Shown piece by piece: positions 3,514 through 31,704 of a stretch of 64,000 bases of DNA; the first letter of the stretch is position 1; the number at the start of each line of letters is the position of its first letter. Under the pieces are notes generated by a model, which did not search any database, had not been told where the DNA came from, and worked only from the letters and a program-made list of their open reading frames with translations. The position numbers were made by a program, and so were the translations under genes. This stretch comes from Promethearchaeota archaeon (lineage in GTDB: Archaea > Asgardarchaeota > Lokiarchaeia > Sigyniarchaeales > SOKP01), in assembly GCA_016930515.1 (NCBI GenBank), contig JAFGGO010000158.1, positions 59,632 to 123,631 on the forward strand, written 5' to 3'.

Positions 3514-4047
3514 ATGATAATGATGAATAAATCAAGTAACATGACTCGTGAAGAATTGGTAAATTTCGAAGCTGCAATGAATCAAAGCCGTAACATGATT
3601 TATCATTTAATTCGCTTCATGAAAAAAAATAAGACGGTAGATGTAAGGGAAAGGCTGCGAGGAATGGGTAAAAATATCGCCAGAACATTTTACAATTATT
3701 GGAAACCAATCGATGATGTAAATACTTTTAACCTCAAGGATGTTTTGACGACGATATATAAAAAAGTCTTGGGTAGCTCGATCGTCATTGATATTGATGA
3801 AGTTAAAAAAACTATTAAAATAAAAGATTCAAAATGCGCTTTATGTAAATATCATTACGAAGATATAGGCAATATTGCTGGATGCGAAGTATTGTTAGGC
3901 ATGTCGTCTGAATTTATCAAGTTAATTAACGAAAATTCAAAAAATCGATCCAAATTGACTTTAATTCCCATCGAAGTGAGTGAATCGTTGTCGTATGGCG
4001 ATGACGCTTGCGTGCAACTTTTTAACTACAAGGAGGGAGGAAAATAA
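3514..4047 (+). CDS. V4R-like (4-vinyl reductase/hydrocarbon-binding-like) domain protein
   Basis: DSKCALCKYHYEDIGNIAGCEVLLG...ESLSYGDDACVQLF pattern. Confidence 0.4.
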   Translation: MIMMNKSSNMTREELVNFEAAMNQSRNMIYHLIRFMKKNKTVDVRERLRGMGKNIARTFYNYWKPIDDVNTFNLKDVLTTIYKKVLGSSIVIDIDEVKKTIKIKDSKCALCKYHYEDIGNIAGCEVLLGMSSEFIKLINENSKNRSKLTLIPIEVSESLSYGDDACVQLFNYKEGGK

Positions 4048-4048
4048 A

Positions 4049-5521
4049 ATGGTATCTGCGTTTCAATGGATCATGAAAAAAGTCACGAAAGTTTTTTCTC
4101 GTACTACAAATTCCCTATTTTATACGCTTTTATATAGGGAAATATTAAAGGAAGTTCAAGAAATAACGAAAAACGAAGAAGATAGCGTTGTTATTTTCCG
4201 GGAATTTGGAAAACGATCTGCTTATGAATCTTGTGAGCGACATTCAAGCATTTTTAAATTCATGCCAGGAGATCCTAAAAAGGTATTGGATTACTTTTCA
4301 ATCCTGTGGTCAATCGTATTTGGGATGGAAATTGGCGAATTTTCCTACGAAACCATCCCAAAGAAAGGTAAATATAACGATTATGTCTTAACTGTAAATA
4401 GTAACCCGATTTGTGCTGGATACGGGAACGATCCCGAAGATACCTTTAATTTCAAGAAATTAGGCTCCGAATCTGAAGGATGTTCTGCAGGTTTGTCAGG
4501 GATGCTTGAAAGCGTGGCAAATTTCATTTTGAAAACGAAAAATGTTGAATATAGGATTTCGATTACTGAAAAAGAATGCATCGCAAAAGGTCAAGGAGCC
4601 TTAAAGCTCAATTGCTTCATATATGACTACGCAGAATGGCAAAAATTAAACGCATCAACGATTAGCGATCAAATATCGTCTAAAGTAAAACTCGAAGAAC
4701 CTAAGGATGAACCTGAATTTGTACAGCAAACAAAACTGGATTTCGTTGATAAGCTCCAAGACTCTTTATCTTTAGATAAAATTGAGGAAATTCTCAATGA
4801 ACCTTTAGAAAGAATAAAAGAAAAGATTTCGGAAATCATAAGAGACAAGTTGAACATGGACCCCGAGAATTTTTTCGATTACTTCAGGAACTACGAGGAT
4901 GACATGCTAAGAATTATTGGATTCCTAATCGTCCATGTTTTAAATGAGTTTGGTGGAATTGTCGAAAAAATTCTAAAAAATGATACTTTCGCAAAGGTCG
5001 TAGGTTACTTATTTAATCACTTTAAAGAAATGACTTTCCTGTTCATACCTTTAGATGTTGCTAACGATTATCACCAGTTGCTAATTGATTTCCTCGATGG
5101 AATGGCCCCTCCCGAGATGGTGGACAATGTAAGAAAATACGCTGGGAAGGACGATATTAATTTCCTCTTTGAAGGCGCTCAAACGGCCCTAGAAAACCTA
5201 GGAGTTAATTTTTCTGAATTAAGAGAAAATATCTGGGAAGAATTGAAAAAGGATGAAAGTAGTGGCTTGATGCCATCGGAAAAATTCGAGGTAGAAAACT
5301 CAAAAGATAAATTTCCAAAAATAATTAAAATAATTCAGGAAATGTTAATGCTTATTAGCGAAATACTCACATTACCAATTAGAATGCTGGTCTCTGAGGG
5401 ACATCACGGTGTAAAAACTGCCATTAATTCAGTTGTTTCAGAAGAAGAGGGCGGTTTATTTGAAAGGGTGAAAGATAGATTAGATGTAATTTTTGACGCC
5501 TTTCAAGAATTAAGGCAATAA
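4049..5521 (+). CDS. V4R-like domain protein with a long helical C-terminal extension
   Basis: In-frame ATG at 4049 preceded by aaggagggagg; N-terminal half SEGCSAGLSGMLESVANFILKTKNVEYRISITEKECIAKGQGALKLNCFIYD resembles the upstream gene. Confidence 0.45.
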   Translation: MVSAFQWIMKKVTKVFSRTTNSLFYTLLYREILKEVQEITKNEEDSVVIFREFGKRSAYESCERHSSIFKFMPGDPKKVLDYFSILWSIVFGMEIGEFSYETIPKKGKYNDYVLTVNSNPICAGYGNDPEDTFNFKKLGSESEGCSAGLSGMLESVANFILKTKNVEYRISITEKECIAKGQGALKLNCFIYDYAEWQKLNASTISDQISSKVKLEEPKDEPEFVQQTKLDFVDKLQDSLSLDKIEEILNEPLERIKEKISEIIRDKLNMDPENFFDYFRNYEDDMLRIIGFLIVHVLNEFGGIVEKILKNDTFAKVVGYLFNHFKEMTFLFIPLDVANDYHQLLIDFLDGMAPPEMVDNVRKYAGKDDINFLFEGAQTALENLGVNFSELRENIWEELKKDESSGLMPSEKFEVENSKDKFPKIIKIIQEMLMLISEILTLPIRMLVSEGHHGVKTAINSVVSEEEGGLFERVKDRLDVIFDAFQELRQ

Positions 5522-26427: not shown

Positions 26428-27132
26428 TTGATATTCCCAACTAAACACCTTAATAAATTGCTTAATACATCTCGTTTCTCTCAAGTAAGAATGATTTCCG
26501 TCTATGGAGATACTGGAGTTGGGAAAACGACTTTCGCCCTCCAAACTGCAAGCAAGATGGTGGCATTAGGGAAAAAAAATTTGATAATTTATACGAAAAA
26601 CGAATTTCCGATCGAGCGACTTTTCGCCATTGAAAACAACGATAAGAATAGATTGGAAACTTTTCTCAATAATTCATTGATTCTGAAGCCTTTAAATTTT
26701 AAGGAATTAAGAACAATTTCCTTTTATCTAGAGCCTCTATTTGCGTATTTAATTCAAGAAGAAAATTTTTTACCAAATCTTATTATCTTGGATTCAATTA
26801 CCGACTTGTATAAATTAGAACTAAATACAGAAAAAAAAGAAAAAAATATCGAATTAAACTACGAACTTAATCAAGTCTTGGCAAATCTCCTAAAATTAAG
26901 TGAAAATCATGATCTTGAGATTCTTTTAGTAAACGACTCGAGTCGAAAAACGGTTGACGATCAAATTACGGAAGTTCAAGGCGGAGGTCAAGTAATGGAT
27001 TATTGGGTTTCAGTTTCGATAAAAATTGCTCGTACTATGAATTTAAACGAGAGATCGTTTGAACTGATAAAGTCGCCTGAAAAAATAAAAAAAAAGTTTG
27101 TTTCAAGGCTTACAGGGAATGGATTTCAATAA
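26428..27132 (+). CDS. radB: RadB-like RecA-superfamily ATPase
   Basis: VYGDTGVGKTTFALQTA Walker A, LIILDSITDLYKLE Walker B, VQGGGQVMDYWVSVSIKI; TTG start. Confidence 0.8.
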   Translation: MIFPTKHLNKLLNTSRFSQVRMISVYGDTGVGKTTFALQTASKMVALGKKNLIIYTKNEFPIERLFAIENNDKNRLETFLNNSLILKPLNFKELRTISFYLEPLFAYLIQEENFLPNLIILDSITDLYKLELNTEKKEKNIELNYELNQVLANLLKLSENHDLEILLVNDSSRKTVDDQITEVQGGGQVMDYWVSVSIKIARTMNLNERSFELIKSPEKIKKKFVSRLTGNGFQ

Positions 27133-28219: not shown

Positions 28220-29479
28220 ATGATTGAAAAGGAAGGAAAGACTAACCACGACGAAGAATTAGCGATTAAAACCGAAGGAAAGGCAAAATTCTATATGTAC
28301 GAAGCAGACGAAAATCAGATTCCTTCAAAATCGATGAAAGTCTTCTATAACGAAAAGATGATCATCAATAGAGATATCACAACCCTCGCAATCAATGCAT
28401 ATAATAGAACATTTGCTAAGGAACTTGTAGTAGTGGATTCGATGGCTGCCTCTGGGATTGGATCAATGCGATTGATGCTTGAATGCCAAGGAATAAAAAG
28501 GATTTACATCAACGACATCAATCCGATAGCAGTTGAATTAATAAACAAGAATTTGGTCTTAAATCAATTGGATGGAACCGCCCATCAAGATATAATACTT
28601 AGCCGAAAGGATGCTAATTTTTTATTTTCCGAACTTGCACAGGAATCTTTATTAAGCGAAATAAATAATATATCGCGACCAAATGTCGTGTCAATAGATC
28701 CTTTTGGAGCCCCAAATCTTTACATCAATTCGGCTTTCAACGCTATTCAAAGAACAAACGGATTGATTTGCGTTACCGCAACGGATACTGCTGTTTTATT
28801 TGGTATAAAACCGCAAGCATGCGTGCGAAAATACATGTCAAAACCCCTTCATGTGGAATATTGCAAGGAAATAGGTGCGCGGATCTTGTTTCATTTTATT
28901 TCCAGAATGGCAAATATAAACAAAATGGGTGTTGTTCCCTTATTAACTTTTTATTCAAACCATTTTATAAGGATCTTTGCCTTGACTTTTAAGCATCAAA
29001 AAAAAGTTGCAGCGGATTTTAGTAATTATGGTTATATAATTCATTGTAAGGTGTGTAATAATCGAATAATTTTAGAAAACATTCTTGATTTGCCTAAAAA
29101 TTGCTCCTATTGCGGCGAAAAAGCTAAAATCGATTACGCAGGACCACTTTGGCTTGGAAAATTACACGACGAGATCTTTCTTAAACAAGTTTATGAATTA
29201 AACGAGGCGTGTTCTTTAAAAAATAAAAAAAGAATAAAAAAAATCCTCATATGCGCTCAAGGAGAGTTAAATATGCCAATATCTTATTACAATATTCACA
29301 AGCTCAGTCAAACATTAAACCTGCGTTGCGTTCCAAAGATGGAGGATTTAATATTAAAGATAACTGAATGCGGGTTCAAGGCTTCCAGAACGCATTTTGA
29401 CTTCACTTCTATAAAAACGGATTTAAAACTTGACGAACTTAAAAAACTGCTATTAAAGAACTATAACAACGGTGATTAA
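28220..29479 (+). CDS. trm1: tRNA (guanine26-N2)-dimethyltransferase
   Basis: KVFYNEKMIINRDITTLAINAY, DSMAASGIGSMRLMLE, VSIDPFGAPNLYINSAF, ATDTAVLFG; zinc-ribbon cysteines. Confidence 0.95.
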   Translation: MIEKEGKTNHDEELAIKTEGKAKFYMYEADENQIPSKSMKVFYNEKMIINRDITTLAINAYNRTFAKELVVVDSMAASGIGSMRLMLECQGIKRIYINDINPIAVELINKNLVLNQLDGTAHQDIILSRKDANFLFSELAQESLLSEINNISRPNVVSIDPFGAPNLYINSAFNAIQRTNGLICVTATDTAVLFGIKPQACVRKYMSKPLHVEYCKEIGARILFHFISRMANINKMGVVPLLTFYSNHFIRIFALTFKHQKKVAADFSNYGYIIHCKVCNNRIILENILDLPKNCSYCGEKAKIDYAGPLWLGKLHDEIFLKQVYELNEACSLKNKKRIKKILICAQGELNMPISYYNIHKLSQTLNLRCVPKMEDLILKITECGFKASRTHFDFTSIKTDLKLDELKKLLLKNYNNGD

Positions 29480-29482
29480 AGC

Positions 29483-30118
29483 GTGACAAAAAATCCTAAA
29501 GAACACAGGAAAGATCCTCACTATAAACAGGCAAAACGAGAAAATTATCGTGCTAGATCTGCTTATAAACTACTCGATATTAATAAGCGATTCAATGTAT
29601 TTAAACGAGCGTTTTATATCTTGGACATTGGAGCAACCCCGGGCTCTTGGCTTCAAGTTGCAAGAAAATTTGCAGAAGAAAACATTTCTCTCTATAAAGA
29701 CGGATTTTACCACAGAGATAATTTTAAAATAATGGGTGTGGACTTAAAATCTGTAACTCCTGTAGAGGACGTTAAAATAATTAAAATGGATGTGAGAAAT
29801 CCCGCTTTTTTAGAAGAAGTTAGGTCTTTTTTTGGTGGTAAGATCGATCTATTGTTGTCGGACGCCTCGATAAAAAAATCTGGGATCAAGTTCCAAGATG
29901 ATGTGAATCAAATTAAGTTATGTAACAAAATTCTTGAAATTGGAAATGAAATCATTCGAAATAAGGGAGCCATGGTAATTAAGGTATTTCAAGGTTCTGA
30001 TTTCGACGAATTTTACGCTTCGATGAAAAATAAATTTCGTTTGATGAAATCCTACAAACCTAAAGGATCTCGAAAGAATTCGAACGAAATTTACCTAATT
30101 GGAATGAAAAAAATATAA
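29483..30118 (+). CDS. rlmE: FtsJ/RlmE-like RNA 2'-O-methyltransferase
   Basis: ENYRARSAYKLLDINKRF, ILDIGATPGSWLQVARK, IDLLLSDASIKKSG, KVFQGSDFDEF; GTG start. Confidence 0.92.
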   Translation: MTKNPKEHRKDPHYKQAKRENYRARSAYKLLDINKRFNVFKRAFYILDIGATPGSWLQVARKFAEENISLYKDGFYHRDNFKIMGVDLKSVTPVEDVKIIKMDVRNPAFLEEVRSFFGGKIDLLLSDASIKKSGIKFQDDVNQIKLCNKILEIGNEIIRNKGAMVIKVFQGSDFDEFYASMKNKFRLMKSYKPKGSRKNSNEIYLIGMKKI

Positions 30119-30739
30119 TTACGATTCTTCCATATATTCCTGAATCGTGTCAAAATCGATGATGTATTCTGTCCCTTGAATATTTGCCTGGATCCAATCT
30201 GTTAACCATTGGCAATAGTTGGGATTAAATTGGTCCAAGTTTGTATCGTTACATTTCTCTTCGTACGGACATACGAAGCAGGGAATGTATCCAAATTTTT
30301 CCCAGATGAACCTATCGTTGTTCATGTCAACTTCGGTCTCATCCACATCCATATCGATTTTTTCTATCGATTTAATTCGTTTCGTCCAAGAACTCTCCCT
30401 AAGTTCGCGTTCGATCGTTATTTTTGACTGAAGAGCAAGTTGTTCGAGTATGGGTTCCAAGTAGTCCCTGTTTTCTTGGGTCATTTCCAAGAGTTCATTA
30501 AAATAAATGTCCTTTTCTTTTTCAATTATGGATAATATGGCTTTTTCGTCCTTTCGAAGGTCACGACTATAATTTTTCTTTTTTTCCTCTATTCTTTCAA
30601 TTCTACGCTCCGAGTCTGATTTCTCGTCTGTCGTCCCTTCAACTCGCTCCTTGATCTTGCATTTGTGGCGACTTAAATAAGCGAAACTTTTTCCACAATA
30701 TGGACAGGTTTCTTTCTTTTTTTTAGCCATGTGATTCAA
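30119..30739 (-). CDS. C2HC zinc-finger + winged helix protein with RPC34-like C-terminal Fe-S signature
   Basis: CPYCGKSFAYLSRHKC; wHTH-like LRKDEKAILSIIEKEKDIYFNELLEMT...; C-terminal PCFVCPYEEKCNDTNLDQFNPNYCQWLTDWI. Confidence 0.6.
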   Translation of the reverse strand: MNHMAKKKKETCPYCGKSFAYLSRHKCKIKERVEGTTDEKSDSERRIERIEEKKKNYSRDLRKDEKAILSIIEKEKDIYFNELLEMTQENRDYLEPILEQLALQSKITIERELRESSWTKRIKSIEKIDMDVDETEVDMNNDRFIWEKFGYIPCFVCPYEEKCNDTNLDQFNPNYCQWLTDWIQANIQGTEYIIDFDTIQEYMEES

Positions 30740-30900: not shown

Positions 30901-31704
30901 ATGATAAATAAAAAACGCTTGGAAAAGATCATTGGCATGAATACCGATCAAATAATCGAATCTAAAATACTTCTTGATTTGATTGATCAAAAAATAAATT
31001 TTAAAAACTTGTTACCTCTAAATTCTACTGGTTTCGACGATCTCCTTGGAGGAGGATTCTGTCCGGGTAAAATGTACCTCGTTTATGGTGCCAATAAAAC
31101 TGGAAAAACTCAATTATGCCATCAATTATGCCTCCAAGCTGTAAAAAACGGCAGAAAAGCTTATTATTTAGATACGGAAAACACTTTTCGAGCTGAAAGA
31201 ATGGTTGAATTAGCCCGGCTTCAATGTTTCAATCCCGATGATATTCTGAAGAACATTCATATATCAAAAATAAAAAGTAATTCAATGCTGTTGCTTGTAA
31301 TTTCGGACATCCAACACGCTTTAAACAATAAAAAAGATCAAGTCTTAGTAGTTGATTCTATTAACAATTATTTTCGATACGAACGAGATGCTCCGAACCT
31401 AACTTTTTCAAATGTAAAACAAGTATTTATGCGTGTTTTAAGCAAGCTTCAAGAAATCACATCTAAATTCAATACGGTAACGGTTGTAACTGCTCAAATC
31501 ACGCCTAATTTTGAGATCAAGCCAGTATTAAAGGAATTACCGGTTGGAAATCAATATCTAAATCATTTTTTTTCCGAATACATATATCTGAGAAGACTAG
31601 AACTAGGATTAAACCAAGCGCGTCTTATAAATTCTCAAGATCTTCCAGAGAGGATAATTAATTACAAAATCACACAGTCAGGTATCGATCCATTTACCCC
31701 TTAG
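30901..31704 (+). CDS. RadA/RecA-superfamily paralogue
   Basis: STGFDDLLGGGFCPGKMYLVYGANKTGKTQLCHQLCLQA; AYYLDTENTFRAERM; QVLVVDSINNYFR. Confidence 0.85.
   Translation: MINKKRLEKIIGMNTDQIIESKILLDLIDQKINFKNLLPLNSTGFDDLLGGGFCPGKMYLVYGANKTGKTQLCHQLCLQAVKNGRKAYYLDTENTFRAERMVELARLQCFNPDDILKNIHISKIKSNSMLLLVISDIQHALNNKKDQVLVVDSINNYFRYERDAPNLTFSNVKQVFMRVLSKLQEITSKFNTVTVVTAQITPNFEIKPVLKELPVGNQYLNHFFSEYIYLRRLELGLNQARLINSQDLPERIINYKITQSGIDPFTP

Follow-up and report, generated by a model that had tools for sequence, protein, structure and literature searches.

An open reading frame on the minus strand (30119–30739) of the window, the 64,000-nucleotide stretch of contig JAFGGO010000158.1 analysed here, encodes a small protein with two cysteine motifs separated by a predicted winged helix (Table 1). 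It is convergent with an FtsJ/RlmE-type 2'-O-methyltransferase gene, which is preceded on its own strand by a Trm1 gene, and the next gene is a RadB/Rad51-type recombinase gene that is conserved within the order. Homologues begin MAKKKKE or similar, which places the start codon at the ATG at 30730 and not at the TTG at 30739. Two RecA/Rad51-type ATPase genes, one of them the RadB/Rad51-type gene, lie less than 5 kb apart near this locus, an arrangement kept in most loci of the lineage.

Table 1. Genes and protein features at the locus (window coordinates)
Feature	Coordinates	Strand	Basis
RecA/Rad51-type ATPase	26428..27132		
Trm1 tRNA dimethylguanosine methyltransferase	28220..29479	+	Pfam PF02005, E 2.2e-92
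FtsJ/RlmE-type 2'-O-methyltransferase, convergent with the TFE-beta gene	29483..30118	+	Pfam PF01728, E 5.5e-46
Very probable Lokiarchaeal TFE-beta (archaeal RPC34/RPC39 orthologue) with N-terminal putative zinc finger, 203 aa + stop	30119..30730	-	Homologues, profile matches
Putative [4Fe-4S] domain, residues 150–180, C-x2-C-x5-C-x12-C then T-x-W	30191..30283	-	Invariant Cys; aligns with human RPC39 residues 282–315
Predicted winged helix, residues 60–121, order H-S-H-H-S-S	30368..30553	-	pLDDT; aligns with human RPC39 winged helix 2
Linker helix, charged, residues 39–55	30566..30616	-	Predicted helix
C-x2-C-x9-H-x-C finger, residues 9–24, CPYCGKSFAYLSRHKC	30659..30706	-	Ligand conservation
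RadB/Rad51-type recombinase, next gene, conserved within the order	30901..31704	+	Pfam PF08423, E 1.6e-32

From the N- to the C-terminus the protein has a Lys-rich start, the finger (ligands C9, C12, H22 and C24), a charged linker with a helix, the winged helix, a variable linker, a four-Cys tail (C151, C154, C160 and C173; PCFVCPYEEKCNDTNLDQFNPNYCQWLTDW) and a short helix. The AlphaFold2 model contains one winged helix, with pLDDT values of about 91–95 over residues 61–120. The full tail pattern was not recovered in 20,000 shuffles of the protein, and the bare four-Cys spacing occurred 13 times in the same number.

The protein taken alone gives no significant family or PDB match, so that its identification requires a profile. 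When 177,635 PDB sequences are searched with a profile of 37 Asgard homologues, human RPC39/RPC34 (RPC6) comes first (E 3.3e-12), matched once over winged helix 2 and separately over the Fe-S tail. In the tail, the Asgard 'PCFiCpfiekCnagqedinPkkCekLteWie' is aligned with RPC39 'PCGLCPVFDDCHEGGE-ISPSNCIYMTEWLE'. RPC6 is again first with a stricter profile containing 18 finger-bearing members and no canonical ones (E 0.0014, via the Fe-S tail), and 12 of the 37 Asgard members match Pfam Rpc34 (best E 2.5e-6). A preliminary description of this DNA had proposed a relationship to RPC34 from the C-terminal motif, quoting the human C-terminus; the relationship holds for the winged helix and the Fe-S tail separately, and the quoted C-terminus is correct, the PDB sequence of human RPC39 reading PCGLCPVFDDCHEGGEISPSNCIYMTEWLE.

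A search of 61 related genomes finds full-length homologues with ~42–71% identity throughout the family to which the window belongs (f1), weaker homologues in a sister family (f2), and little beyond f2. A profile built from these homologues (A1) finds matches in 180 of the 197 Asgard genomes, and its only match in the window's own genome is a full-length copy. An apparent absence from a further family (f4) was rejected, as a more diverse profile finds homologues of 120–140 aa there. The distant Asgard members are mostly 115–150 aa in length and consist of the winged helix and a tail of the form PCF.C....C.......P..C..L..W. In one genome (locus L102, G110:C138) there are two adjacent TFE-beta-like open reading frames (3691–4260 and 4400–4699), each with a four-Cys tail, and these may represent a duplication.

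The predicted metal ligands are strongly conserved. Neither the four tail cysteines nor the four finger ligands vary among 18 family members with 41–70% identity, and the tail cysteines, together with Leu98, are also invariant across the 37 aligned Asgard homologues, down to about 17% identity. Finger and tail motif are both present in all 55 named Lokiarchaeal TFE-beta loci (a 56th locus, L219, belongs to an unrelated finger protein, while L218 is truncated by a contig end), and the named records of the finger version are all from Lokiarchaeota/Lokiarchaeia metagenome genomes. The preliminary description had also proposed a winged-helix-like segment, an Fe-S-type tail and the fusion of a C2HC finger as an Asgard variant, and all three stand; it had named the lack of a winged helix or of cysteine conservation as the outcomes that would count against it, and a winged-helix fold is predicted and the cysteines are invariant.

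The gene neighbourhood extends well beyond the lineage. Of 56 lineage loci, 54 have an FtsJ gene beside the TFE-beta gene, as do 35 of 50 loci of other families, many of them phylum-distant, and Trm1 is nearby in 54/56 and 29/50 loci, respectively. Crenarchaeal and thaumarchaeal RPC34 genes have also been reported among tRNA and rRNA modification genes (PMC2770514), and the FtsJ/Trm1 synteny agrees with TFE-beta orthology. With the RPC39 profile match, and with canonical versions (winged helix and Fe-S tail) present across the Asgards, mostly beside FtsJ/RlmE and Trm1 genes, the gene is identified as the Asgard orthologue of archaeal RPC34.

Blombach and colleagues found that the RPC34-like protein of Sulfolobus is TFE-beta, which forms a dimer with TFE-alpha, acts as a basal initiation factor and is not stably incorporated in the polymerase (PMC4495717). 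The window protein is therefore taken for a variant of TFE-beta and not for a subunit of the Pol III type, and the gene very probably encodes Lokiarchaeal TFE-beta, the archaeal homologue of TFIIE-beta and RPC34/RPC39, with functions that would correspond to those in Sulfolobus. The likeness to RNA polymerase III RPC34 named in the preliminary description is accordingly kept for kinship, and the functional label is refined to that of the basal factor (PMC4495717). An alternative in which the Asgard RNA polymerase has the protein as a stable subunit of the Pol III type, acting as RPC34 does in eukaryotes, is in keeping with the similarity to RPC39 in both domains; however, the Sulfolobus orthologue pairs with TFE-alpha and is not stable in the polymerase (PMC4495717), TFE-alpha is encoded in Lokiarchaea, and the protein is without the other winged helices of RPC39, and we consider this reading very improbable.

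The predicted fold supports the winged helix and does not by itself identify the protein. Foldseek searches with the predicted structure return generic winged helices, none below E 0.001, with TFIIE (7nvs_W, 5gpy_A) and Pol III RPC6 (8iue_P) among the top 18. The winged helix is also MarR-like in these searches and in sequence, with 15 of the 37 Asgard members matching Pfam MarR, as would be expected of a gene-specific MarR-type regulator with a metal sensor and not a basal factor. However, an Fe-S tail is not a known feature of MarR proteins, and the gene is present as a single full-length copy, is near-universal in the phylum, is syntenic and has invariant cysteines. The winged helices of TFE-beta are themselves MarR-like (PMC4495717, PMC2770514), and a role as a MarR-type regulator is highly unlikely. 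A cofactor of RNA modification or processing acting with the neighbouring Trm1 and RlmE-type enzymes can be given scarcely any credence, for although the neighbourhood is conserved over the Asgards and reported for TACK archaea (PMC2770514), the genes are convergent here and so do not form one operon, and the role of the orthologue in transcription initiation has been directly demonstrated (PMC4495717).

The expected partner of TFE-beta, TFE-alpha, is present in 58 of the 61 related genomes and was not found with two profiles (one of them family-specific) in the three assemblies of the window's genus. Matches to Pfam TFIIE_alpha in the window's genome, where inspected, are generic HTH proteins or a GTPase and were rejected. 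In relatives TFE-alpha lies in a block with the order rpo2 – gene5 – TFE-alpha – MBF1 – proteasome ATPase (the gene names being our own reading of the sequences). In the window's genome one contig (C19; L224, G000:C19:1-3600) starts 57 bp past gene5, which precedes TFE-alpha elsewhere, and another (C43; L225, G000:C43:9500-12276) ends 457 bp beyond the proteasome ATPase gene; MBF1, which would lie between these ends, is likewise missing. In a second assembly of the genus (G002), contig C141 ends beside rpo2 and C138 starts beside the proteasome ATPase gene. Because the contigs of these two genomes, the best of the three assemblies, break inside the block, loss of TFE-alpha, which the profile searches had at first suggested, is rejected for them and its absence probably reflects an assembly gap. 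The third assembly (G001) is 74% complete.

The TFE-beta core is already known and expected in Asgards, for which TFE-beta has previously been listed (PMC7289017), and the novelty of the gene is the N-terminal finger. The finger is present throughout f1 and in one f2 genus (g13); in other f2 genera a Lys-rich tail takes its place, and both are lacking from canonical TFE-beta elsewhere. In a tree built from the winged helix and tail, the finger-bearing proteins require two changes, which fits either a single gain combined with partial loss or two gains. Thaumarchaeal RPC34 has a low-complexity N-terminal extension (PMC2770514), so that TFE-beta has been extended at its N-terminus in other lineages too. 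The literature searched contains no description of a finger on any TFE-beta, and the finger is a lineage-specific addition to the factor.

An exact match to the finger pattern is found only once in the window's genome. Close versions are present on other Lokiarchaeal proteins, namely the aIF2-gamma of one genus (g6) and two further protein families. The g6 aIF2-gamma has an N-terminal CPYCGKEFKRLSAHKC finger (L245/L250, G007:C49:22301-23749; L251), and two further g6 genomes have a finger-bearing frame of 90 aa ahead of the aIF2-gamma frame. The aIF2-gamma of most other f1 genomes examined is extended differently, by ~100–130 aa at the N-terminus (L254–L257, L259, L261), and the sequence of this extension ('LEDVSGIGKATAERLKAAGI...IKGVGTATAKKYIENA') reads like a helix-hairpin-helix; in the f2 genus g10 the protein has a Lys-rich tail (L258). 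The first of the two further families is a protein of 340–358 aa with an N-terminal finger of the TFE-beta type (L043:2637-3710, L244) and no Pfam match for the copy scanned (L244). The second is a family of ~215–265 aa with several CxxC motifs and two short C-terminal fingers (L242, L243, L246, L248, L249), a copy of which is present at a contig end in the window's genome. The finger seems to be a small module that can move among the information-processing proteins of this Lokiarchaeal lineage.

In Sulfolobus a [4Fe-4S] cluster is bound by the four C-terminal cysteines of TFE-beta, as it is in human RPC39, and in the Sulfolobus protein three of the four are required for cluster retention and dimerisation; the TFE-alpha/TFE-beta complex makes the initiation complex more stable and favours opening of the DNA, and the TFE-beta gene is essential (PMC4495717). 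By analogy, the tail cysteines of the Lokiarchaeal protein would hold a structural [4Fe-4S] cluster that docks it onto TFE-alpha, and the winged helix would contact the non-template strand and help in promoter opening. With less certainty than these steps, the finger may bind one zinc and, on its flexible Lys-rich arm, add a contact to nucleic acid or the polymerase, possibly serving as a lineage-specific tether in place of the Lys-rich tail of sister Lokiarchaea. The broader proposal, that it is an exchangeable lineage-specific tether on basal factors of transcription (TFE-beta) and, in one genus, translation (aIF2-gamma), is speculative and on balance unlikely; if it is true, these factors would be recruited to or held on nucleic acid or a shared partner, and initiation would come under a further level of control that is not known from other archaea.

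Both TFIIE-beta and Pol III RPC34 have their archaeal root in TFE-beta, and as Asgard archaea are the closest relatives of eukaryotes the form of TFE-beta in this phylum bears on how the factors came to be divided among the eukaryotic polymerases. Like human RPC39, the Lokiarchaeal protein has retained the full set of four Fe-S ligands; with its added finger it is a defined case in which to ask whether basal initiation has changed within a lineage.

Of the closest known systems, archaeal TFE-beta (Sulfolobus Sso0944) likewise joins a winged helix to a four-Cys Fe-S domain at the C-terminus, is single-copy and is encoded near tRNA and rRNA modification genes; TFE-alpha is encoded in relatives. 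It differs in lacking the ~55–60 residue N-terminal extension with the C2HC finger and charged helix, and the Fe-S loop of the window protein exceeds that of canonical Asgard versions by 1–3 residues. Eukaryotic RPC34/RPC39 (POLR3F) aligns with the protein over winged helix 2 and the Fe-S tail, and the two proteins share the ending PC..CP....C...P..C...T.WL, whereas RPC39 has additional winged helices (the AlphaFold2 model of the window protein has one, against the several of eukaryotic RPC34), is a built-in Pol III subunit and has no N-terminal zinc finger. By homology of the archaeal factor, TFIIE-beta is likewise a winged-helix initiation factor that pairs with an alpha subunit, but it has lost the Fe-S ligands (PMC5861453). 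The finger itself resembles zf-C2HC_2 (Pfam PF13913) in its CPYCG.x.F start and C2HC ligands, with a match that is well below the Pfam cut-off (12.8 vs 27 bits) and covers only the first half of the finger; its ligand spacing appears to be shorter than that of the family.
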